NCBI RefSeq assembly: GCF_002217405.1
Contig: NZ_MUHE01000011.1
Span: forward strand, 39,480 to 103,479
From: Flavobacterium psychrophilum DSM 3660 = ATCC 49418
Lineage (GTDB): Bacteria > Bacteroidota > Bacteroidia > Flavobacteriales > Flavobacteriaceae
Direction: 5' to 3'
Length of the DNA stretch: 64,000 nt
The notes beneath the pieces were generated by a model. That model worked only from the letters and a program-made list of their open reading frames with translations. It was not told where the DNA came from and did no database searches. A program made the translations under genes and the position numbers. Below are positions 47,408 to 56,844 of the stretch, in pieces. How positions within the stretch are numbered: position 1 is the stretch's first letter; each line of letters begins with the position of its first letter.

Positions 47408-47512
47408 CACAAAAAACTTCATGACAAAGACAAAAATTAGTTGTTATAACCTCTTCTAATTTGCAACAGTTTTGGTTTGCTTTTTTATAAAACACACTAA
47501 ATTAAAAATCCA

Positions 47513-47566
47513 TTTATCGACACTTTTTTGCCATTGGTCGATACTTAATCTAATTTCATCGAAAAT
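47513..47566 (+). promoter_or_regulatory. Three 21-bp-spaced TTnnTCGA repeats (LytTR-type operator)
   Basis: TTTATCGA, TTGGTCGA and TTCATCGA occur with their TCGA at 47517, 47538 and 47559, an exact 21-base period. The first two repeats extend to TCGACACTT and TCGATACTT, separated by 12 bases. LytTR domains bind pairs of about 9-bp direct repeats in this spacing. They lie 56-109 bases before the first gene of the signalling operon, whose last gene encodes a LytTR regulator, so this is its likely self-operator. No clear TAnnTTTG box was found between it and the first gene. Confidence 0.65.
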
Positions 47567-47621: not shown

Positions 47622-48035
47622 ATGGCAAAATCATTAAACATACTCCTGATAGAAGACGATACAATTGAAATAATGAAATTCAATAGAGTTTTAAAAACTA
47701 TCGAATCAAATCATAAAATAATTGAAGCTAACAATGGTGAAGAAGCTTTAGAAATTTTGAAAGAAAAAGAAAACACACCAGATATTATCATCCTTGACTT
47801 AAACATGCCTAGAATAAACGGCATAGAATTTCTAGGTATTTTAAAACAAGATCCAGTATTAAAATATATTCCAGCCATAATTTTAACAACTTCTAACAAC
47901 CATACAGATATTTTAGAATGCTATAAAATTGGTATTGCAGGGTATGTTTTAAAACCCTTAAAATATGACGACTATGTAGATAGAATTAAGAAAATGCTAG
48001 ATTATTGGAGTATAAACGAACTCATATCACAATAA
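47622..48035 (+). CDS. Single-domain response regulator (CheY-like)
   Basis: A 137-residue stand-alone receiver. The acidic pocket is E11/D12/D13, the phospho-acceptor is D59 in PDIIILDLNMP, the switch residue is T90 in IILTTSNN, and the conserved lysine is K111 in VLKPLKYDDY. There is no output domain, so it works by protein contact, for example as a shuttle or phosphate sink. It is the first gene of the NO-sensor operon, seven bases before the H-NOX gene. Confidence 0.93.
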   Translation: MAKSLNILLIEDDTIEIMKFNRVLKTIESNHKIIEANNGEEALEILKEKENTPDIIILDLNMPRINGIEFLGILKQDPVLKYIPAIILTTSNNHTDILECYKIGIAGYVLKPLKYDDYVDRIKKMLDYWSINELISQ

Positions 48036-48042
48036 CAATACC

Positions 48043-48585
48043 ATGTACGGAATAGTAAACAAGGCTATAGAAGATTTAGTAATTGCTAACTTTGGTGAAG
48101 CAAAATGGAATGCCATCAAAGACAGAACAGGTATAGATATAGATTTTTTTATAAGCAATGAACCCTATGACGACGAGATAACATTTAAACTTGCTCTTGC
48201 CGTTTCCCAGGAAATGAATATGACTATTAATCAGGTACTTATTACTTTTGGCGAGTGGTGGGTTATAAAAACAACATCAGAAAAATATCCAGGACTCATG
48301 AACTCCGGAGGCAACAATTTAAGAGATTTTTTAGTAAATTTACCTAACTTTCATAACAGAGTAATGCTAATTTATCCAAAATTAACACCACCAGAATTTA
48401 AAATAAGTAATATTACAGAAAATGGCTTAAATTTACATTACTTTTCTAAAAGACAAGGCTTACAAGAATTTGTTCGTGGCTTAATTCAAGGATTAGGAAA
48501 AATGTTTAATACGCAGGTTACAATAGCCTTAATTCAAACTCGCAATCAAGGTAGCACTCACGAAATTTTTAAAATAAATTGGTAA
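48043..48585 (+). CDS. H-NOX heme nitric-oxide-binding protein
   Basis: A 180-residue H-NOX (HNOB) protein, the family of soluble guanylyl cyclase heme domains. It binds heme and senses NO (and in some members O2). The proximal heme ligand is H104 in LPNFHNRVMLIYPKL, and the heme-propionate motif Y-x-S-x-R is Y133, S135 and R137 in HYFSKRQGL. The start MYGIVNKAIEDLV is typical. The distal pocket (near residues 70-78, GEWWVIKT) shows no obvious tyrosine for O2 stabilisation, which suggests NO selectivity. It stops one base before the kinase gene whose N-terminus has an HNOBA domain. Confidence 0.95.
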   Translation: MYGIVNKAIEDLVIANFGEAKWNAIKDRTGIDIDFFISNEPYDDEITFKLALAVSQEMNMTINQVLITFGEWWVIKTTSEKYPGLMNSGGNNLRDFLVNLPNFHNRVMLIYPKLTPPEFKISNITENGLNLHYFSKRQGLQEFVRGLIQGLGKMFNTQVTIALIQTRNQGSTHEIFKINW

Positions 48586-48586
48586 T

Positions 48587-51199
48587 ATGAATACATTAGA
48601 ATTTAATTTTAACGAAGATAGTTTTAACAAATTATTCCCATTTTATATTCTAATTGATACCAACTTAAAAATAAAAAGTTTTGGTAAAAGTTTAGCTAAA
48701 ATTTGTCCTAATATTAAAAAATCACTTTCCTTTAAAAACAATTTTGAGGTTGTTAGGCCCCACCTAGACAACCTCAATTTCAACGAATTGGCTTCAAACT
48801 GTAATCAATTAATTATAATAAAATATATAAATAGTAATACCCCAATTCGTGGACAATTCGAATTAATTAACAATTCGCTTTTATTTGTAGGTTCTCCCTG
48901 GTTTGGTTCTATGAGTGATGTTATCGAAAAAAAACTAACATTACATGATTTTGCAATTCATGACCCATTGTTAGATTTACTACATATTCTTAATAATCAG
49001 GAGAATACCGCTAATGAATTAAAAGAATTGTTAACAACAATAAACGATCAAAAAAACAAATTAAAACAAGCCAATAAAGAAATTCATGATATTGCGCTTT
49101 TCCCAACACAAAATCCTGATCCAATAATTCGAATTGATACCAAAGGAAATTTACTAAAAAGAAATCCAGCAGCCGAAAAATTATCTTCATTTATTTATGA
49201 TGAAATTAATTATAAAATAGAAGATTTTTTCAAATTTATTATTACAAAAATAGACCCCGAGAAAGAGCGTTGGATTTTTGAAATACAAAACGACCAAAAA
49301 TATTATTCCTTTGTTTGTATAAGCCTAAAAGAAGATAATTATATTAATATTTACGGCCGAGATATCACACAACAAAAAAAAACAGAAGAAGAATCAAATC
49401 GTCTATCATTAGTAGCAAGCGCTAACCAAAATGGTGTCGTTTTTACAAACCCCAACGGAATAATATTTTGGTGTAACAATGCCTATTTAAAACTTACAGG
49501 ATTTTCTCGAGAAGAAGTTATTGGAAAAACCCCAATAGAAATAGGAAAAACAAATCATACCAATAAAAGTGATTTAAAAAAAATGATCGAACCGTTTTAT
49601 AAAGGAATCCCTTTTGATATCGATTTAATACATGCCCGCAAAGACGGTAGTAGCTTTTGGTCTAAAAACAAAGGACAACCAATTTTAAATTCAAAAGGAG
49701 AAGTAATTCAGTATTTTGCCATGATTGAAGACATTTCGCTAAAAAAACGATACGACGAAAGTTTGCAAAACGAGAAAGAAAAATATCGAAGCATTATTGC
49801 CAACATGAATCTTGGTCTTTTAGAAGTTGATCTAAATGACGTTATCACCCTTGCTAATAATAGTTTCTTAACCATTAGTGGTTATTCTTCTGAAGAATTA
49901 ATAGGAAAAAAAGCTGCCGAATTATTACTAACACAAGAAAGCAAAAAGTTAGTAAAAAGTAAAAATGAAATTCGAAAAAAAGGAAAAACAGATTCGTATG
50001 AAGTTAAAGTAATCGATAAGTTTGGAAAAAACAGACATTGGCTAATTAGTGGTGCACCCAATTATAATGCAATGGGAGAATTAATAGGCACCATAGGAAT
50101 ACATCTTGACATTACCCTACAAAAAGAGCAGGAAGAAAAACTATACTTATTATCATTAATTGCCGAAAAAAATATAAATTCTGTTATCATTGCTAATCCA
50201 GAAGGCAAAATTGAATGGGCAAACAAAAGCTTTATCGAAATTTCTGGATACACAATAGAAGAACTCATTGGCAAAAGACCAGGAAATTTACTACAAGGCA
50301 AAGAAACAAACCCCGAAACAATTATTTATTTACGAGACCAAATAAAAAAAGGATTACCCTTTAACTGCGAAATCATTAATTATTCTAAACAAGGAAAAAA
50401 ATATTGGATAAACATACAAGGTCAGGCATTATACAATAAAAAAGGTCAAATTGTTAAATTTTTTGCAATTGAAGAAAATATAACTAAAAAGAAAGAACTC
50501 GAGGAAAAACAAGATTTTTTAGTAAAAAGTTTAGCAAAAAGTAATAAAGAATTAGAAGATTATGCCTCGATTGTATCGCACGATTTAAAATCACCATTAA
50601 GAAGTATTCATTCTTTAATATCTTGGATTAAAGAAGATAACGACAAACAATTAAACGATCAAACATTACAATATCTATCATTAATTGAAGGAAAAGTAGA
50701 AAAAATGGACTATTTAATTGAAGGAATTTTAACCTATGCTAAAATAGATAAAATAAATTTGGCTTCAGAAAAAGTAAATACACATGAAATAATAGAAAAT
50801 ATTATCAATATAATTCATATTCCCAATCATATTAATGTATCAATTATAGGAAAATTACCAATTATAAATGCCGATAAATTTAGAATACAACAACTTTTTC
50901 AAAATATTATAAGCAATGCCGTAAATTATATAGACAAACCAATTGGTACTGTCAATGTAAGTTGCATCGAAAAAGACGGCAAATATATATTTTCTATTCA
51001 AGATAACGGACCAGGTATTGCTAAAGAAAACCAAGAAAAAATATTTAAAATTTTTCAATCACTCCAAAAATCAGACAAATCAACAGGCTTAGGCCTTTCA
51101 ATAGTAAAAAAAATTATAGAAACCTATAACGGTAAAATATGGCTAGAAAGCCAAATTAATCATGGAACAACATTTTTTATATCGCTAAACGATCAATAA
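48587..51199 (+). CDS. HNOBA-PAS sensor histidine kinase (H-NOX partner)
   Basis: An 870-residue soluble kinase with no membrane segment. Residues 1-150 match the HNOBA domain found next to H-NOX in guanylyl cyclases (FPFYILIDTNLKIKSFG, LLFVGSPWFGSM at 98-109, and DFAIHDPLLDLLHIL at 121-135). A coiled coil (140-170) and about four PAS/PAC units (roughly 175-270, 275-400, 400-515, 525-640) follow. The HisKA box has H665 in VSHDLKSPLRSIHS, then N-box LFQNIISNAVNY, DNGPGI and GLGLSIV. HNOBA next to an H-NOX gene points to direct partnership. It is two bases upstream of the FIST gene. Confidence 0.93.
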   Translation: MNTLEFNFNEDSFNKLFPFYILIDTNLKIKSFGKSLAKICPNIKKSLSFKNNFEVVRPHLDNLNFNELASNCNQLIIIKYINSNTPIRGQFELINNSLLFVGSPWFGSMSDVIEKKLTLHDFAIHDPLLDLLHILNNQENTANELKELLTTINDQKNKLKQANKEIHDIALFPTQNPDPIIRIDTKGNLLKRNPAAEKLSSFIYDEINYKIEDFFKFIITKIDPEKERWIFEIQNDQKYYSFVCISLKEDNYINIYGRDITQQKKTEEESNRLSLVASANQNGVVFTNPNGIIFWCNNAYLKLTGFSREEVIGKTPIEIGKTNHTNKSDLKKMIEPFYKGIPFDIDLIHARKDGSSFWSKNKGQPILNSKGEVIQYFAMIEDISLKKRYDESLQNEKEKYRSIIANMNLGLLEVDLNDVITLANNSFLTISGYSSEELIGKKAAELLLTQESKKLVKSKNEIRKKGKTDSYEVKVIDKFGKNRHWLISGAPNYNAMGELIGTIGIHLDITLQKEQEEKLYLLSLIAEKNINSVIIANPEGKIEWANKSFIEISGYTIEELIGKRPGNLLQGKETNPETIIYLRDQIKKGLPFNCEIINYSKQGKKYWINIQGQALYNKKGQIVKFFAIEENITKKKELEEKQDFLVKSLAKSNKELEDYASIVSHDLKSPLRSIHSLISWIKEDNDKQLNDQTLQYLSLIEGKVEKMDYLIEGILTYAKIDKINLASEKVNTHEIIENIINIIHIPNHINVSIIGKLPIINADKFRIQQLFQNIISNAVNYIDKPIGTVNVSCIEKDGKYIFSIQDNGPGIAKENQEKIFKIFQSLQKSDKSTGLGLSIVKKIIETYNGKIWLESQINHGTTFFISLNDQ

Positions 51200-51201
51200 T
51201 C

Positions 51202-52338
51202 ATGAAAATAGTTCAAGCTACAAAAACAGAAAATCAAGATTGGAAATTTTTGCAAGAAAAAATAATTTTAAAAAATCCGTTAGTGCTAGTTTTTGCCAAC
51301 AGATTTTTATTAGATGACGAAAAAGTAATTAACGATATTCGAGTACAATTCCCTTACGAACATATAGTTTTTGGCTCTACATCTGGAGAAATATCAAATA
51401 TAAATGTAAACGAAAATTCTATTTCTGTAGTGGCAATAGAATTTGAAAAAAGCTCTTTTATCGTAAAAAGCGATAACATTATTAACTATAATAAAAATGC
51501 CAAAATACTAGGAAAAATCTTGTACAATAAAATGCCAAAAGAAAATTTGAAGCATTTGTTTGTACTATCGGAAGGAAGTTTCGTAAACGGAAGCGACCTC
51601 ATTGACGGATTAGAACAAGACATGAACCCTAACATATCTATCACTGGCGGCATGTGTGGCGATGATGCACGATTTGAAAAAACACTCGCATCATACAAAG
51701 AAAACCCAAAAATTGGCGAAGTCGTTTTAATAGGTTTTTATGGCGACACATTAGAGATCTCTTTTGCTAGTTTTGGAGGATGGACACCGTTTGGACCAGA
51801 AAGAACAATAACATCATCAGAAGGAAATATATTATTTGAAATAGATGCAAAACCAGCCTTAGATTTATACAAATATTACCTTGGTGATAAAGCAAGCCAA
51901 TTGCCGCAAGCCTCATTATTATACCCCCTAAATGTAATCCCAGAAGGAAAAACAGAAGCCGTCGTGAGAACCATTTTGAGTATTAATGAAAATAACAATT
52001 CGATGGTTTTAGCTGGCGATGTACCCCTAAATTCACGAGTTCAATTAATGATGGCTTCGATAGATGCAATAGCCTCTGGTGCCCAACATGCGGCAGAAAT
52101 AGCCAACGAAAACCGTAAAAAACCAGCAGAACTAGCATTAATCATTAGTTGTATTGGAAGAAAACTAATTATGAATCAACGAGTTGAAGAAGAAATAGAA
52201 CAAGTTCAAGAAATTATTGGAAATCAAGTTGCCATAGCTGGATTTTATTCTTACGGAGAAATTGCACCATTTAATGGCAAAAATAATTCTTGCGAATTAC
52301 ACAATCAAACCATGACATTAACATTAATTAGTGAATAA
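51202..52338 (+). CDS. FIST-domain signal protein (NosP-type)
   Basis: A 378-residue protein consisting of FIST_N (about 20-215) and FIST_C (about 220-365). FIST_N is seen in VFGSTSGEISNINVNENS, ITGGMCGDDARF and VLIGFYGDTLEISFASFGGW. FIST_C ends GFYSYGEIAPFNGKN and CELHNQTMTLTLI. FIST proteins include NosP, a heme-binding NO sensor in Pseudomonas and Vibrio. Heme binding has to be tested; H367 in CELHNQT is one candidate histidine. Its stop overlaps the next kinase start by one base, as in known NosP-kinase operons. Confidence 0.9.
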   Translation: MKIVQATKTENQDWKFLQEKIILKNPLVLVFANRFLLDDEKVINDIRVQFPYEHIVFGSTSGEISNINVNENSISVVAIEFEKSSFIVKSDNIINYNKNAKILGKILYNKMPKENLKHLFVLSEGSFVNGSDLIDGLEQDMNPNISITGGMCGDDARFEKTLASYKENPKIGEVVLIGFYGDTLEISFASFGGWTPFGPERTITSSEGNILFEIDAKPALDLYKYYLGDKASQLPQASLLYPLNVIPEGKTEAVVRTILSINENNNSMVLAGDVPLNSRVQLMMASIDAIASGAQHAAEIANENRKKPAELALIISCIGRKLIMNQRVEEEIEQVQEIIGNQVAIAGFYSYGEIAPFNGKNNSCELHNQTMTLTLISE

Positions 52339-53363
52339 TGAATTCATTATTAAAAAGACAAATAGATAAAAAATTAAAAAACGGACTCGATGATATAGCC
52401 CCGTTTATTAATGCCGTAAATGATTCCTATAACAATTTTGAAGATCAAATTTCAATGCTTCAACGAGCAATGAAAATTAGTTCAGACGAATTGTTTCTTG
52501 CCAATCAAAAACTACGAGACGAAGCAAAAGGATTGAAAGAAATTAACAAAAATCTTCAAAATGTTTTAAATTCAATGAATTTAGAAAACAACAATATAGA
52601 TAATGATGATCATTTAAATTCAGCCGATTATGTAAAACAACAATCAGATGAAATAATTAGAATAAACAAACAACGAGAAGAATTATTAAAAAATTTAGAA
52701 AAACAAAACCAAGCATTAAACCAGTATGCACATGTAGTTTCCCACGACCTAAAAGCACCATTACGAAGTATAGATACCCTAATAAATTGGTTTAAAGAAG
52801 ACAATGCTGCAATATTAGATGATAATAATAATAAATCACTAGATTTAGTTTTGTCTAATGTTGAAAAAATGGACTTATTAATCAAAGGAATTTTAGATTA
52901 TTCGGCTATCGATAAATTAGAAGTAAAAGACCGAACTATTGATTTGAATATTTTAATTCACAAAATTATTAGAACAATTACTATTCCAAATCATATCGAA
53001 ATAATTTTGAAAAACAAAATGCCAAAAATCGTTGGAAATGATATTACACTAAAACAATTGTTCCAGAATTTAATTCAAAATGCTATAAAATATAACGATA
53101 AAGAAATGGGATTTGTCGAAATAGGAAGCAAAGAAAATGACAATGAAATAGAATTTTATATAAAAGATAACGGTATTGGAATTAAAGAGCGCTATCAAGA
53201 CAAAATATTTAATTTATTTTCTAAATTAGAAAACACAGATCAATCATCAGGAATTGGGCTTTCAATTGTAAAAAAAATAATAGATATATACCAAGGAAAA
53301 ATTTGGTTAGAAAGCCAAGAAACAATAGGAACTACCTTTTATTTTACTATACCAAAGCAATAA
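52338..53363 (+). CDS. Soluble sensor histidine kinase (NosP-associated)
   Basis: A 341-residue kinase with an N-terminal coiled coil (about 1-125, rich in ISMLQRAMKISSDELFLANQKL-type helices) and no PAS or membrane segments. The HisKA box is VVSHDLKAPLRSIDTLINWF with H136. The ATPase has N-box LFQNLIQNAIKY, DNGIGI and GIGLSIV, and the IVKKIIDIYQGKIWLESQETIGTTF tail. It resembles HK1 in the catalytic part, so the two kinases probably arose by duplication. Its direct coupling to the FIST gene, and the HPt gene after it, mirror the NosP-NahK-HptB arrangement known in Pseudomonas. Confidence 0.92.
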   Translation: MNSLLKRQIDKKLKNGLDDIAPFINAVNDSYNNFEDQISMLQRAMKISSDELFLANQKLRDEAKGLKEINKNLQNVLNSMNLENNNIDNDDHLNSADYVKQQSDEIIRINKQREELLKNLEKQNQALNQYAHVVSHDLKAPLRSIDTLINWFKEDNAAILDDNNNKSLDLVLSNVEKMDLLIKGILDYSAIDKLEVKDRTIDLNILIHKIIRTITIPNHIEIILKNKMPKIVGNDITLKQLFQNLIQNAIKYNDKEMGFVEIGSKENDNEIEFYIKDNGIGIKERYQDKIFNLFSKLENTDQSSGIGLSIVKKIIDIYQGKIWLESQETIGTTFYFTIPKQ

Positions 53364-53680
53364 TGGAAAAACCTAATTCTAACTACATCAATCAATTATC
53401 AGGAGATAATGAAGATTTTAAAACCAAAGTTATCGGGATATTAAAAAAAGAATTACCCGAGGAAATAACGATTTATGAACATCTAATTCAAACCAAGAAA
53501 TACAAATTAGCATCAGAAAGCGTTCATAAACTGAAACATAAAATTTCTATCCTTGGTCTTGAAAAAAGTTACTATATTGCCGAAGAATTTGAAAATAATT
53601 TGAAAGAAAATTCTACAAAATTGCAACCTGATTTTGAAACCATTTTAAAATCTATGCAGGATTTTGTAAATACATTATAA
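53363..53680 (+). CDS. Histidine phosphotransfer (HPt) protein
   Basis: A 105-residue helical-bundle protein. The ATG at 53363 overlaps the kinase stop by one base (TAATG). The phospho-histidine is likely H55 in ESVHKLKHKISILGL, the HPt-typical H-K-L-K-(H/G) motif. There is no kinase or receiver. It can carry phosphate between the two kinases and the receivers of the CheY-like and LytTR proteins encoded on either side. An upstream reading starting inside the kinase gene is not supported by the family start. Confidence 0.85.
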   Translation: MEKPNSNYINQLSGDNEDFKTKVIGILKKELPEEITIYEHLIQTKKYKLASESVHKLKHKISILGLEKSYYIAEEFENNLKENSTKLQPDFETILKSMQDFVNTL

Positions 53681-53692
53681 AGTATTTAGCAC

Positions 53693-54418
53693 ATGAATTG
53701 TATTATTATAGATGACGAAGAAATGGCAAGAGCAATTATTAATCAAATGATTGCAAACCATAACACATTAAATTTAGTACAAGAATTTTCAAACGCCATA
53801 CAAGCCATAAAATATCTAAATCAAAACAATATTGATCTAATATTTTTAGACATTCATATGCCCGATTTTACAGGATTTGATTTTATGCAAACCATAAAAA
53901 ATCCTCCAAAAATAATACTAATTACTTCAGACAAAAACTTTGCCATCGAAGCTTTCGAATACGAATGCGTTGTCGATTATTTAGTAAAACCAATTACTAA
54001 AGAACGTTTTGAAAAAGCCATTGCAAAAGCCCTTGCAAAAACTAATGCCGCACAAATAAGTAATCGAAATTCTACCATCGAAATTAAATCATTAACAGAA
54101 GATAATAACAAAGAATTTTATGTAAATATTGACCGCCGTTTGATAAAAATAGAATTCGATTTGGTTACTATTGTCCAAGCAAAAGGAGATTACATTCATA
54201 TTAAAACCGAAGGCAAAAATTACGTAGTACATTCTACTCTAAAAAAAATAGAACAAAAACTACCCAAAGATACATTTCTAAAAGTGCATCGGTCGTACAT
54301 CATCAATACTAAAAAAATTATTGATATTGAAGACAATAGCGTACTAATTGCTAAAGATGTTATACCTGTAAGTCGTGCCAATCGTCCTGAATTAATGAAA
54401 TTTCTAAATTTACTCTAA
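53693..54418 (+). CDS. LytTR-family response regulator
   Basis: A 241-residue response regulator. The receiver has D7/D8 and phospho-acceptor D53 in LIFLDIHMPDFTGFD, the TS switch in ILITSDKN and K in YLVKPITKERF. The C-terminal LytTR domain (about 140-241) has FYVNIDRRLIKIEFDLV, IVQAKGDYIHIKTEGKNY, LKVHRSYIINTKKI and IPVSRANRPELMKFL. It is the DNA-binding output of the operon. It begins 12 bases after the HPt gene. Its binding site is probably the 21-bp TTnnTCGA array at the operon's own promoter. Confidence 0.95.
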   Translation: MNCIIIDDEEMARAIINQMIANHNTLNLVQEFSNAIQAIKYLNQNNIDLIFLDIHMPDFTGFDFMQTIKNPPKIILITSDKNFAIEAFEYECVVDYLVKPITKERFEKAIAKALAKTNAAQISNRNSTIEIKSLTEDNNKEFYVNIDRRLIKIEFDLVTIVQAKGDYIHIKTEGKNYVVHSTLKKIEQKLPKDTFLKVHRSYIINTKKIIDIEDNSVLIAKDVIPVSRANRPELMKFLNLL

Positions 54419-54458: not shown

Positions 54459-56516
54459 TTATAATTTAAAAACGGGTTTACTACGCAAATCCCATTTCAA
54501 ACGAAGACCAAATTCTGTAAATGTAAATCCCGAGGCTGCCGCCGATGCAATGTTACTTTTTAGTCCATAAATATTAACCAGCAATCGGTTCGAAAATTTG
54601 TAACCCAATTTGGCTTGAACTCTATAAGTTGCTTGTTTGTCTAATTTTTCGATATATTGAAATCCAGTTGCTGCATTCAAATTGTAAAACCACGAATGTG
54701 TTTCGGTAATTTTTTCGTCTTTCAACAATTCGACAAATACTTCATAAGCATTAAATTCGCTTGGGCTAAAATAAACAGTTGGCAGTTGGTTTTTAAACGA
54801 AATATATTGGTAATTAAATCCAGCTTTTAAAATAGGTTTTGATAAAAAGCTGTAATACAATGAAGTAAATAATAAATTTCGGGTATTATTATCGGATTGC
54901 GTCGTGTAAAAATATTGTGTAAACCAACCCAATTTAAAATTAGAACCAATGTTGTAATTAAAATAATAGTTATTTGCAGCAATTTGTTTGCCAATTAAAT
55001 CTGTATTAAAATTTTGCAAATCCCGCTTATAACCCACTTCTAAATCTTGCAATTTAAGGGGTTTAATTTTAAAATACGAGTTCAACAGCAATGAAGTATA
55101 ACTTGCTGTTGTTAAATTAGCTGAAGTAATTCCGCTATCGAGATTAAAACTTATTTTGGGATGAAATTTATATGAAGCTCCAATTAAAAAATCGTTGGTA
55201 TTTGCACTTACATTGGTTACTGTATTTTCTGTTTTTCGGTATTGATAGGCTGTGTTTACAGACCATTTTGTCGAAACAGGAAAAGTAATTTGTGTTCTAG
55301 AACTGATGGCATTATTATTTCCATTATCGAACGAATAGCTTAATTTTTCTTCTATACTTGGTGTATGTTCTTCGTTTAATTTCTTCAAAAAAATCATAGC
55401 ATCGTTCTGATTTTTAAAAATTTCTAAGGTTTGATAAACTGCTTTTATCGATTTTTTAATTTCTCCCGAAGCATAAAAAGCATTTGCAATTCCTAAATTT
55501 CCATCAAATGATTGGGCATCGTTGGCTAAAATACTTTCATAATATTTTATACTTTCTTCAAAATTACTTTTATAAATTGCTAATGTTGCAGATAAAGCTA
55601 ATACCCAATTTTCGTTAGGATATTGTTTATTAAGTTCATTAATTTTAGTTATTGCTAAATTGTATTTTTTATTCCAAATTAAGGCTTGAACATTACGTTC
55701 TTTAGTCTGTTTTATCAAAACGCTGTCTGAAGTTTCATTAATTTTAGCCATTGCTTTATCAGAAATTACCAAAGCTTTTTTTTCTTTTCCAGCAATATGT
55801 TCTACTAATGACAAGCCGTTTAATGCTAAAATAGGATCTAAACTGGATAACAAATCATACGATTCTCGTCCTTTTTTGCTGTTTTTTGTAATCAAATACA
55901 AATTTGCTTTATTAAGAAGTGTTTCTTTATCATTCGGAAAATCGACTAAAATCTCATCGTAAAAGCTTTCAGCATTAGCATATTTTTTTTCCGAAATCAT
56001 TTGGTTAGCATACCCTAATTTAATGTATTTTCTTGAAACCAAAGCGCCAATATTTCCAGAAGAAATCCCTAATGCTTTGTTTACATTAAATAATGCTTGT
56101 TCAAATTCTTTTAAATTAGATAGCGTATTGGCAAACCCAAGATGTGCGACAAAGTTTGTTGCATTCTCATCGACTAATTTTGTATAATACAGTTTAGCAC
56201 TATCAAAATTTTTGTTCCACAATAACGATTCTGCATAATTTAATTTAATTTCTAAATCATCTGGAAATTCGCTTTTTAATGTTGTAAATAAAGCCAAGGC
56301 TTTTTGGGGTTGCTTATTTAAACCAATAGCTCTTGCGTAGCAAAGCCGAGCCGTTTTATTTTGGGGATAATCTTTTAATATGGTTGTAAAAAAAATTTCG
56401 GCTTTATCAAACTCGCCTTTTTCTAAATTAGAAAAGCCTTCATTCATATTTTGAGCATTTCCAATAAAGCCTATAAAAATAAACAGAATAGTAATTGTCT
56501 TTTGAAATGATTTCAT
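54459..56516 (-). CDS. TPR protein with YaiO-like outer-membrane beta barrel
   Basis: A 685-residue secreted protein. After a signal peptide (TITILFIFIGFIGNAQ) comes a run of tetratricopeptide repeats (about 25-390, for example NMNEGFSNLEKGEFDKAEIFF and FEQALFNVNKALGISSGNIGAL). The rest (about 395-685) has alternating beta strands and ends AVS-like LRLKWDLRSKPVFKL, the type III YaiO outer-membrane barrel (TIGR04390). TPR-barrel proteins of this kind are common in Bacteroidota and are used in polysaccharide export or secretion. It is convergent with the LytTR gene. Confidence 0.85.
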   Translation of the reverse strand: MKSFQKTITILFIFIGFIGNAQNMNEGFSNLEKGEFDKAEIFFTTILKDYPQNKTARLCYARAIGLNKQPQKALALFTTLKSEFPDDLEIKLNYAESLLWNKNFDSAKLYYTKLVDENATNFVAHLGFANTLSNLKEFEQALFNVNKALGISSGNIGALVSRKYIKLGYANQMISEKKYANAESFYDEILVDFPNDKETLLNKANLYLITKNSKKGRESYDLLSSLDPILALNGLSLVEHIAGKEKKALVISDKAMAKINETSDSVLIKQTKERNVQALIWNKKYNLAITKINELNKQYPNENWVLALSATLAIYKSNFEESIKYYESILANDAQSFDGNLGIANAFYASGEIKKSIKAVYQTLEIFKNQNDAMIFLKKLNEEHTPSIEEKLSYSFDNGNNNAISSRTQITFPVSTKWSVNTAYQYRKTENTVTNVSANTNDFLIGASYKFHPKISFNLDSGITSANLTTASYTSLLLNSYFKIKPLKLQDLEVGYKRDLQNFNTDLIGKQIAANNYYFNYNIGSNFKLGWFTQYFYTTQSDNNTRNLLFTSLYYSFLSKPILKAGFNYQYISFKNQLPTVYFSPSEFNAYEVFVELLKDEKITETHSWFYNLNAATGFQYIEKLDKQATYRVQAKLGYKFSNRLLVNIYGLKSNIASAAASGFTFTEFGLRLKWDLRSKPVFKL

Positions 56517-56844
56517 TAGTCGAAAATTTTATTAATATTCTTTGCAAGTTAGTCATTAAACATTTATCATTCGACAGTAGCAACGTGTTATTCATCGAAA
56601 AATAAGCATATTTATTTATAATTTTGAGGGTTTTTAGCTAGAAGTTATAATTTAAATGAGAAAATTGATTTTAAAAAATACATTTTTACTAAATGATCCC
56701 TGTGGTTTTTATTTTAAAATTAAATCAGACTATTATACATATCTAAATGGTATTATTAGTACATGAAATGTATATTGATAAAAAAATAGCAAAAAAAAAT
56801 GTCAGGTCTTTTGAACCTGACATTTAAACTTTAAAAAGAAATGA
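56517..56844. other. 328-base intergenic region with TCGA motifs
   Basis: No gene is seen. The region holds TCATTCGA (56567-56574) and TTCATCGA (56591-56598); the latter extends to a TTCATCGAAAAATAA block almost identical to TTCATCGAAAATAA at 47555-47568 in the signalling operon operator. The motif spacing here is 24, not 21 bases. The terminator of the metalloprotease gene lies at the right end. Confidence 0.45.
56797..56825 (-). terminator. Rho-independent terminator of the M43 protease gene
   Basis: An 11-base perfect stem (AAATGTCAGGT at 56797-56807 and ACCTGACATTT at 56815-56825) with a 7-base loop. On the minus strand it is followed by a run of T. It lies 20 bases beyond the M43 protease stop. 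Confidence 0.85.

Follow-up and report, generated by a model that had tools for sequence, protein, structure and literature searches.

Introduction

In Shewanella oneidensis, the network formed by the H-NOX/HnoK and NosP/NahK pathways has enzymes of cyclic di-GMP (c-di-GMP) as its output. Here, an operon that also combines an H-NOX and a FIST-type protein is described in Flavobacterium psychrophilum DSM 3660 (ATCC 49418), at positions 47622–54418 of a 64,000-nt stretch (contig NZ_MUHE01000011.1, positions 39,480 to 103,479 of the forward strand, assembly GCF_002217405.1), which is called the window and whose numbering is used throughout. A stand-alone receiver (REC) is followed in it by H-NOX, a histidine kinase (K1), the FIST protein, a second kinase (K2), a histidine phosphotransfer protein (HPt) and a LytTR response regulator. 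At the level of sequence, the operon presents a conserved gene order, conserved key residues, two chimeric kinases and a tandem repeat upstream of its first gene, and it probably encodes a multi-input phosphorelay. A title cited in PMC12570481 states that the pathways of H-NOX and NosP come together in Shewanella and, as far as that title goes, the likeness lies in an H-NOX and a FIST-type sensor placed on a shared network. However, the operon described here has a REC-HPt-LytTR output, its FIST protein falls below the NosP cut-off, and the core of K2 is a duplicate of that of K1.

Spo0-type phosphorelays run in the order His-Asp-His-Asp, with a free-standing REC, a phosphotransferase and several input kinases. 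The operon resembles them in that order, in the free REC and in its multiple kinases, but has an HPt in the place of Spo0B, a LytTR protein in the place of Spo0A, and gas-type sensors. In vibrios, H-NOX/HqsK of Vibrio harveyi and NosP/VpsS of V. cholerae feed LuxU, so that a sensor kinase likewise acts on an HPt common to several kinases (accessible part of PMC6769237); however, those kinases are hybrid, the output is LuxO, and LuxU receives the H-NOX input in one species and the NosP input in another. The H-NOX and NosP pathways of Legionella converge on c-di-GMP, according to the accessible part of PMC11237717. Moreover, FIST is among the Pfam families lying within five genes of hnox in H-NOX group 1, in a network of families present in ≥20% of genomes (PMC8738867), the section on this network giving frequency only, with no mention of HPt, LytTR, kinase origin or operator. 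Finally, the LytTR regulatory system (LRS) of Streptococcus mutans resembles the operon in that its regulator acts on 9-bp repeats placed in tandem before its own operon, mostly with 12 bp between them (accessible part of PMC6193735), but it works with a membrane inhibitor, not a phosphorelay. The first-pass annotation of the window had considered the combination not to be described as a single system. This holds for the architecture, as no description of the HPt-LytTR arrangement, the chimeric kinases or the operator was found in searches of one open library, subscription papers being mostly outside its coverage, while crosstalk between H-NOX and NosP and the presence of FIST beside H-NOX had already been published, according to the partly accessible sources above.

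Architecture of the operon

Seven open reading frames (ORFs) run head to tail on the forward strand, with intergenic distances of −1 to +12 bases, so the gene order and the gaps or overlaps of at most 12 bases reported by the first-pass annotation were borne out by the ORF listing and Pfam. The first encodes the stand-alone REC (47622..48035; PF00072, 1e-23; D59), a proposed phosphorelay intermediate, and the second an H-NOX protein of the sGC/Alr2278-like type, where sGC is soluble guanylate cyclase (48043..48585; PF07700, 1e-49; H104 and YxSxR). These are followed by K1, of 870 aa (48587..51199), with an HNOBA domain (PF07701, 9e-19), three PAS domains, HisKA and HATPase_c, and by the FIST-FIST_C protein (51202..52338; 3e-42 and 2e-36, respectively), a putative second sensor. 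K2, of 341 aa (52338..53363), carries HisKA and HATPase_c behind an N-terminus of the FIST-kinase type (approximately residues 1–80), and no known sensor domain was found in it by Pfam. The last two genes encode HPt (53363..53680; PF01627, 2e-5; H55) and the REC-LytTR response regulator, the DNA-binding output (53693..54418; D53), in which both Response_reg (PF00072, 2e-20) and LytTR (PF04397, 1e-19) were above the cut-off. HPt was barely above it (25.0 bits vs. 24.6), and its start is likelier the ATG at 53363 than the TTG at 53303 of the ORF listing. The heme motif of H-NOX, the kinase behind each sensor, the single HPt and the single LytTR output were also as first annotated, by Pfam and by residues.

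The phosphoacceptor residues of the window are REC D59, K1 H665, K2 H136, HPt H55 and LytTR D53, and the heme motif of H-NOX comprises H104 and Y133-x-S135-x-R137. In alignments drawn from 95 loci (L062–L156), H104, Y133 and S135 were each conserved in 95 of 95 sequences and R137 in 92 of 95, and the relay residues were invariant (REC D59, 93/93; HPt histidine, 84/84; LytTR D53, 84/84; K2 histidine, 77/77). K1 H665, compared separately, was kept in 30 of 30. Separate kinases, REC, HPt and output REC, all with their phosphoacceptor residues, make the parts of a His-Asp-His-Asp phosphorelay complete. The scans for promoters and terminators were at chance level (47 vs. a mean of 41.5, and 2 vs. 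3.0, respectively).

Distribution among relatives

H-NOX was found in 146 and FIST in 116 of 397 genomes of the family, and the host genome (2.64 Mb, 83 contigs) had one match to each, both inside the operon. All 150 H-NOX loci were fetched and 149 were labelled, using profiles derived from the genes of the window; the unlabelled one (L263), which lacks an anchor and falls below the family cut-off, is a fragment carrying two TAG and one TAA, and L161 had no anchor in one locus annotation. For FIST, the best 150 rows of the search of the family genomes were used, and the H-NOX loci supplied the FIST genes of four genomes outside them (G049, G118, G267 and G313), together with one further match in G338, its second.

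The full seven-gene set was detected by script in 68 of the 150 H-NOX loci, 67 of them in the exact order and one (L066) with an additional gene before LytTR. This recurrence places the gene order beyond chance, and a chance neighbourhood was thereby ruled out. Four loci added by eye raised the number to 72: L065, with a gap of 496 bp exceeding the limit of 420 bp, L214 and L129, with a spurious opposite ORF, and L118, with K2 split by an extra ORF. The set without FIST and K2 (REC, H-NOX, K1, HPt and LytTR) appeared in 55 loci, 54 of them exact and one (L255) with an additional REC, and L230, L254 and L260 were variants of it. The first-pass annotation had proposed a survey of gene neighbourhoods and had taken a FIST only occasionally beside H-NOX as a refutation; this was not the outcome, since FIST lay downstream of H-NOX in 79 of the 150 loci (77 by script, and L065 and L214 by eye), with HPt following in 77 of those 79. 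The distance from H-NOX to FIST mostly fell in steps near 1350, 1730, 2120 and 2500 bp, as would be expected if K1 varied in its number of PAS repeats. The length of K1 differs between relatives by about one PAS domain per step, and the number of these domains seems to grow and shrink.

In a thin sample of the phylum (395 genomes), H-NOX was found in 27 genomes and FIST in 89, and 20 of the 21 new H-NOX places were examined, that of G765 being left out. The seven-gene order appeared in three loci of the same genus (L189, L192 and L193) and in one of another family of the class (L196), and with a third kinase in L190 and L191, while the remaining places had shorter, fused or different neighbourhoods. 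In G723, two identical H-NOX proteins are encoded about 57 kb apart (L194 and L195), and the other genes of the operon are missing from the second place. Furthermore, four FIST genes in a row were seen in L267 (G261), G069, G101 and G225, all genomes without an H-NOX match.

Origin of the two kinases

A total of 161 K1, 85 K2 and 24 kinases beside stand-alone FIST genes were collected, and trees were built on chosen rows, first 88 and then 54, the second dropping the long-branch rows of the first. The best paralogue of K2 in the host genome was K1 (49%, 211 bits), the next one scoring 75 bits. In the tree of 54 chosen cores, K1 and K2 formed one clade (38 rows, support 100/100) lying apart from the kinases of stand-alone FIST genes and from other H-NOX kinases, and the core grouping expected of K2 as a transplanted stand-alone FIST kinase was rejected by the approximately unbiased (AU) test (p 1e-9). 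A profile of the N-terminus of K2 (~80 residues, built from 80 of the 85 K2) matched 20 of 20 stand-alone FIST hybrid kinases, these being the ones >500 aa, with a median E of 2e-15, and matched none of 200 shuffles and none of the 161 K1 N-termini, trimmed to 200 residues. The reverse profile, built from the PAS-bearing stand-alone kinases, matched 147 of the 161 K1, the match shown lying in profile positions 45–193, the PAS part. With an N-terminus of the FIST-kinase type and a core that is sister to that of K1, K2 is by its sequence a chimera, namely a copied H-NOX kinase core that bears a FIST-type front. The test did not reject a single clade of Flavobacterium K1 and other K1 to the exclusion of K2 (p 0.42), so more than one order of duplication fits.

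The phosphoacceptor helix, of the HDLK type, had a mean identity of 0.717 between K1 and K2 over 85 operons, and of 0.246 between K2 and the stand-alone FIST hybrid kinases, the kinases of L175, L176 and L264 being excluded from the latter figure. In these three loci, FIST genes away from H-NOX are accompanied by kinases of the K2 clade, so the FIST-K2 pair can stand alone. Against the model of NahK/ErcS hybrid kinases (NF041832), K2 scored 79.3 bits, with a threshold of 400, and it carries no REC, which places it outside that family. The reading frames of both K1 and K2 look broken in L324 and L326 (Flavobacterium davisii and F. covae).

H-NOX and FIST proteins

The H-NOX of the window, with an HNOB domain of 168.7 bits (cut-off 25.5), differs from that of most relatives. 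It grouped with the H-NOX proteins of the HNOBA type (support 100/99, 46 rows), and its median identity to the H-NOX of L063–L136 was 25%, while REC (66%), LytTR (68%) and FIST (57%) showed ordinary identities to the same relatives. Its nearest solved relatives were Alr2278 and sGC beta-1, and the common H-NOX of the operon (L067 was tested) was very close to the Protein Data Bank (PDB) entries 6bdd and 6bde (324 bits). In the archive copy that was searched, both entries bear the name of an aldolase, and we take them to be the H-NOX of Kordia algicida carrying a wrong molecule name. HNOBA was found in 2 of 30 K1 proteins by Pfam (the window and L063) and, by profile, in 12 of 194 loci. The core of the window's K1 nevertheless stays among the operon kinases in the core tree, and the arrival of K1 whole with an HNOBA-type H-NOX was rejected (Flavobacterium K1 with other HNOBA kinases, AU p 1e-37). 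An odd H-NOX and HNOBA joined to an ordinary K1 core mean, as read from the sequences, that the sensor half (H-NOX and the HNOBA N-terminus of K1) has been replaced by an sGC-like pair, with the relay retained. Nitric oxide (NO) would be the ligand of this H-NOX.

The first-pass annotation had seen in the operon both known families of bacterial NO sensors, which stands for H-NOX and does not for FIST as an established NO sensor. The window's protein matched the FIST and FIST_C domains expected of a NosP (145.1 and 125.3 bits), but scored 53.0 bits against the NCBIfam model of NosP (NF041558), with an equivalog cut-off of 450, and six other FIST proteins scored 38–98 bits. It is not called NosP here on the basis of these scores, and may still work like one. 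Its structure model was confident (predicted local distance difference test, pLDDT, 92.5) and came nearest, among the 50 fold matches shown, to the FIST fold of FBXO22, with a template modelling (TM) score of about 0.5; no heme-bound FIST structure was among those 50. Single-protein and profile searches against the sequences of solved structures found nothing (E up to 1 and up to 0.1, respectively), and a heme ligand for NosP was not found in the accessible parts of the literature searched. H367 and C317 are conserved among the FIST proteins of the operon, conservation alone being uninformative on heme. The nearest named FIST proteins were mostly from Flavobacterium (71–76%; L298–L302), and FIST genes on plasmids of Legionella and Azospirillum had 36–40% identity, with no annotated H-NOX in the two plasmid regions examined. 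One of them, on a conjugative Legionella plasmid (L177, 4636–5802; 40% identical), has no adjoining annotated kinase.

Predicted operator and candidate targets

A predicted LytTR operator of two 16-bp direct repeats with a 21-bp period lies upstream of REC (47510..47546, forward strand), and its motif is shared with the upstream regions of REC in relatives. The copies in the window are TCGACACTT and TCGATACTT, 21 bp apart, and the fuller repeat in relatives is CCATTCGTCTACACTT. When scored for two copies at that distance, 126 of 155 operon upstream regions were above all 775 dinucleotide shuffles (64 of 77 loci with FIST and 53 of 66 without it), the few scored loci from which the consensus was chosen not being independent. 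At ten other spacings, 0–3 loci reached the level at which the 21-bp spacing gives 83. The operator was also present in 65 of 75 named loci. By position weight matrix (PWM), the window operator scored 48.0 bits and the next non-overlapping site 7.8, with shuffled windows reaching up to 12.4; that site, at 56564, by a convergent gene of tetratricopeptide repeats (TPR), is not above noise.

With a strict pattern, 49 sites were found in 49 of the 397 family genomes, and none with the reversed control. Forty-five were upstream of an H-NOX match by no more than 1200 bp; two others, from genomes lacking any such match, precede REC and a PAS protein whose N-terminus is K1-like, and the remaining two precede a separate REC-LytTR locus where the H-NOX operon has no LytTR (G172 C2 and G347 C11; L284 and L285). 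Judging by this placement, the predicted operator follows the system. A third half-site at the operon was discarded as noise, since a looser genome pattern gave two overlapping matches and the reversed control also two. LytTR operators are described as 9-bp repeats 12 bp apart in the accessible part of PMC6193735, and the 9+12 layout of the predicted operator fits them; the arrangement found here, direct repeats in tandem before the own operon at a distance of about 21 bp, is what would be expected of a LytTR regulator.

Among relatives, 262 sites scored >18 bits by PWM in 149 loci, and none did when the same 1.89 Mb was shuffled once by mononucleotides. Of these, 124 were before the operon, 111 were <300 bp before another gene (81 loci), 20 were farther and seven at an edge. 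The largest clusters of candidate targets were proteins of ~864 aa (39), ~98 aa (17) and ~409 aa (9). Pfam was run on ten example proteins from the neighbourhoods of these sites and gave DUF6923 with a sorting tail of the type IX secretion system (T9SS) (862 aa), STAS (100 aa) and glycosyl transferase group 1 (411 aa), as well as CAP, UDP-sugar dehydrogenase and HlyD, with GNVR below the cut-off and three proteins without any family. The largest cluster thus includes a T9SS-sorted surface protein, and these targets, taken from relatives only, suggest the cell surface and matrix.

Optional sensors

A total of 80 named loci were fetched, two of which (L329 and L337) were not counted for having no FIST near the expected place by script. 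In the other 78 a FIST was labelled, and in 11 of these H-NOX was absent from the four genes before it; nine of the 11 keep REC, K1, FIST, K2 and HPt (L303, L308, L313, L318–L322 and L327). No H-NOX was found by tblastn in the stretches fetched for these nine operons, and a search of the nine whole genomes, those of L303 and L319 being metagenome-assembled, found it in one, that of L320; the other eight keep K1, FIST, K2 and HPt in genomes without an H-NOX match. As for the FIST branch, a tree of REC, HPt and LytTR (128 loci) implies that its presence changed at least 25 times, with at least eight of these changes on starred branches, and both repeated gain and repeated loss of FIST-K2 would be compatible with this tree.

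In addition, a third kinase with an HDLK-type core stands between K2 and HPt in Flavobacterium relatives (L190, L191, L308 and L310). Its front end is a GAF domain in L190 by Pfam, with L310 looking alike, and a membrane-like N-terminus in L191 and L308 by reading; a third input is possible. Since either sensor can be absent, H-NOX and FIST probably act as parallel inputs, in an OR-like or graded manner. The logic had first been put as AND, OR or graded, and the absence of each branch in many loci rules out an obligate AND gate, leaving AND less likely and favouring the parallel forms.

Neighbouring genes

Downstream of the operon, the convergent TPR gene occupies 54459–56516 of the window. 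L192 has a look-alike in the same position, and many relatives have a gene of comparable length there.

Discussion

The sequences compared here likely describe a multi-input phosphorelay with autoregulation through the operator and a probable surface or biofilm output. The H-NOX protein would control K1 and the FIST protein K2, and both kinases, having sister catalytic cores, would pass phosphate to the stand-alone REC, from which it would reach HPt and then the LytTR regulator. This regulator would bind the 21-bp tandem repeat before its own operon and, in relatives, similar sites before genes of surface proteins and polysaccharides, so that the output is probably the surface or biofilm matrix. 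We infer the order of phosphotransfer, the binding of LytTR to the repeat, the direction of control and the biofilm output. An HPt must be loaded by a receiver. The proposed order is based on this, on the lack of a receiver domain in both K1 and K2 by Pfam, and on the fused relatives, which are HK-REC-HPt (HK, histidine kinase) in L197 and L201, and HK-REC in L063, L198 and L200. The stand-alone FIST kinase of L168 is an HK-REC fusion as well.

It is unlikely that K1 and K2 phosphorylate LytTR directly, with HPt and REC as a phosphate sink that resets it; pairwise chemistry would permit this, but the fused HK-REC-HPt relatives fit a forward relay better. The presence of two receivers, together with the specificity that kinases can have, could also point to two two-component systems sharing a transcript, with K1 acting on REC and K2 on HPt and LytTR or elsewhere. 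This we regard as very unlikely, because the cores of K1 and K2 are sisters with similar contact helices, REC, HPt and LytTR persist in the 55 loci without FIST-K2 and, without H-NOX, REC and HPt persist in all nine loci examined, with LytTR in line in four. As to what the FIST protein senses, the chances are about even that its ligand differs from that of H-NOX and that the relay integrates NO with another signal. Its subfamily is distant from NosP, and kinase cores of the same type carry in relatives the GAF domain of L190 or the membrane-like N-terminus of L191, but its lasting association with H-NOX could point to related signals. A FIST protein that is a functional NosP, binding heme and NO and providing a two-range response to NO, is a more tentative proposal. 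The scores of 53 bits and, in the six others, of 38–98 against the 450-bit cut-off speak against it, and we know of no heme ligand for this FIST subfamily. In its favour, all 25 FIST proteins scanned matched the NosP model (E ≤ 0.01), the pairing with H-NOX is persistent, and FIST proteins with partner kinases are NO or heme sensors elsewhere, according to the accessible parts of PMC12570481 and PMC8846402.

Several observations weigh against the multi-input relay as proposed. The identity of the K1 and K2 helices is 0.717 both within and between operons, with no sign of pairwise co-evolution, and hence points to shared specificity instead. Two of the 79 FIST-bearing loci have neither HPt nor LytTR, and five more have no adjoining LytTR. 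Among the nine operons without H-NOX, LytTR is in line in only the four mentioned, lies on the opposite strand in L313 and does not adjoin the other four, and the operator is above the threshold in six and below it in three. Moreover, the changes in the presence of FIST, at least 25, imply that this branch is easily lost or gained. In the host genome, a search allowing ≤3 mismatches found only the operon's own site (reversed control, 0), and REC could have an output of its own.

Taken more widely, we lean slightly towards seeing the multi-input relay as a plug-in chassis, in which one REC-HPt-LytTR relay has repeatedly received new sensors, each through the fusion of a sensor-specific N-terminus to a copy of one and the same kinase core, all the inputs being optional. 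These would comprise FIST and both types of H-NOX, that with HNOBA and that lacking it, as well as a GAF or membrane sensor in relatives, and NO would be one of several signals setting the surface matrix via one operator. In the literature surveyed, pathways of NO sensors mostly end in c-di-GMP enzymes or in LuxU/LuxO. Here, a common route in one Bacteroidota family would end in a transcription factor, LytTR, whose operator is predicted and whose candidate targets are matrix genes, which makes the route directly testable. Furthermore, natural genomes record the duplication of a kinase core and its refitting with a new sensor, with the relay unchanged and both sensors removable or swappable, so the rewiring of bacterial signalling becomes testable with existing variants, and the operon could show how new sensors get plugged into an existing signalling relay.

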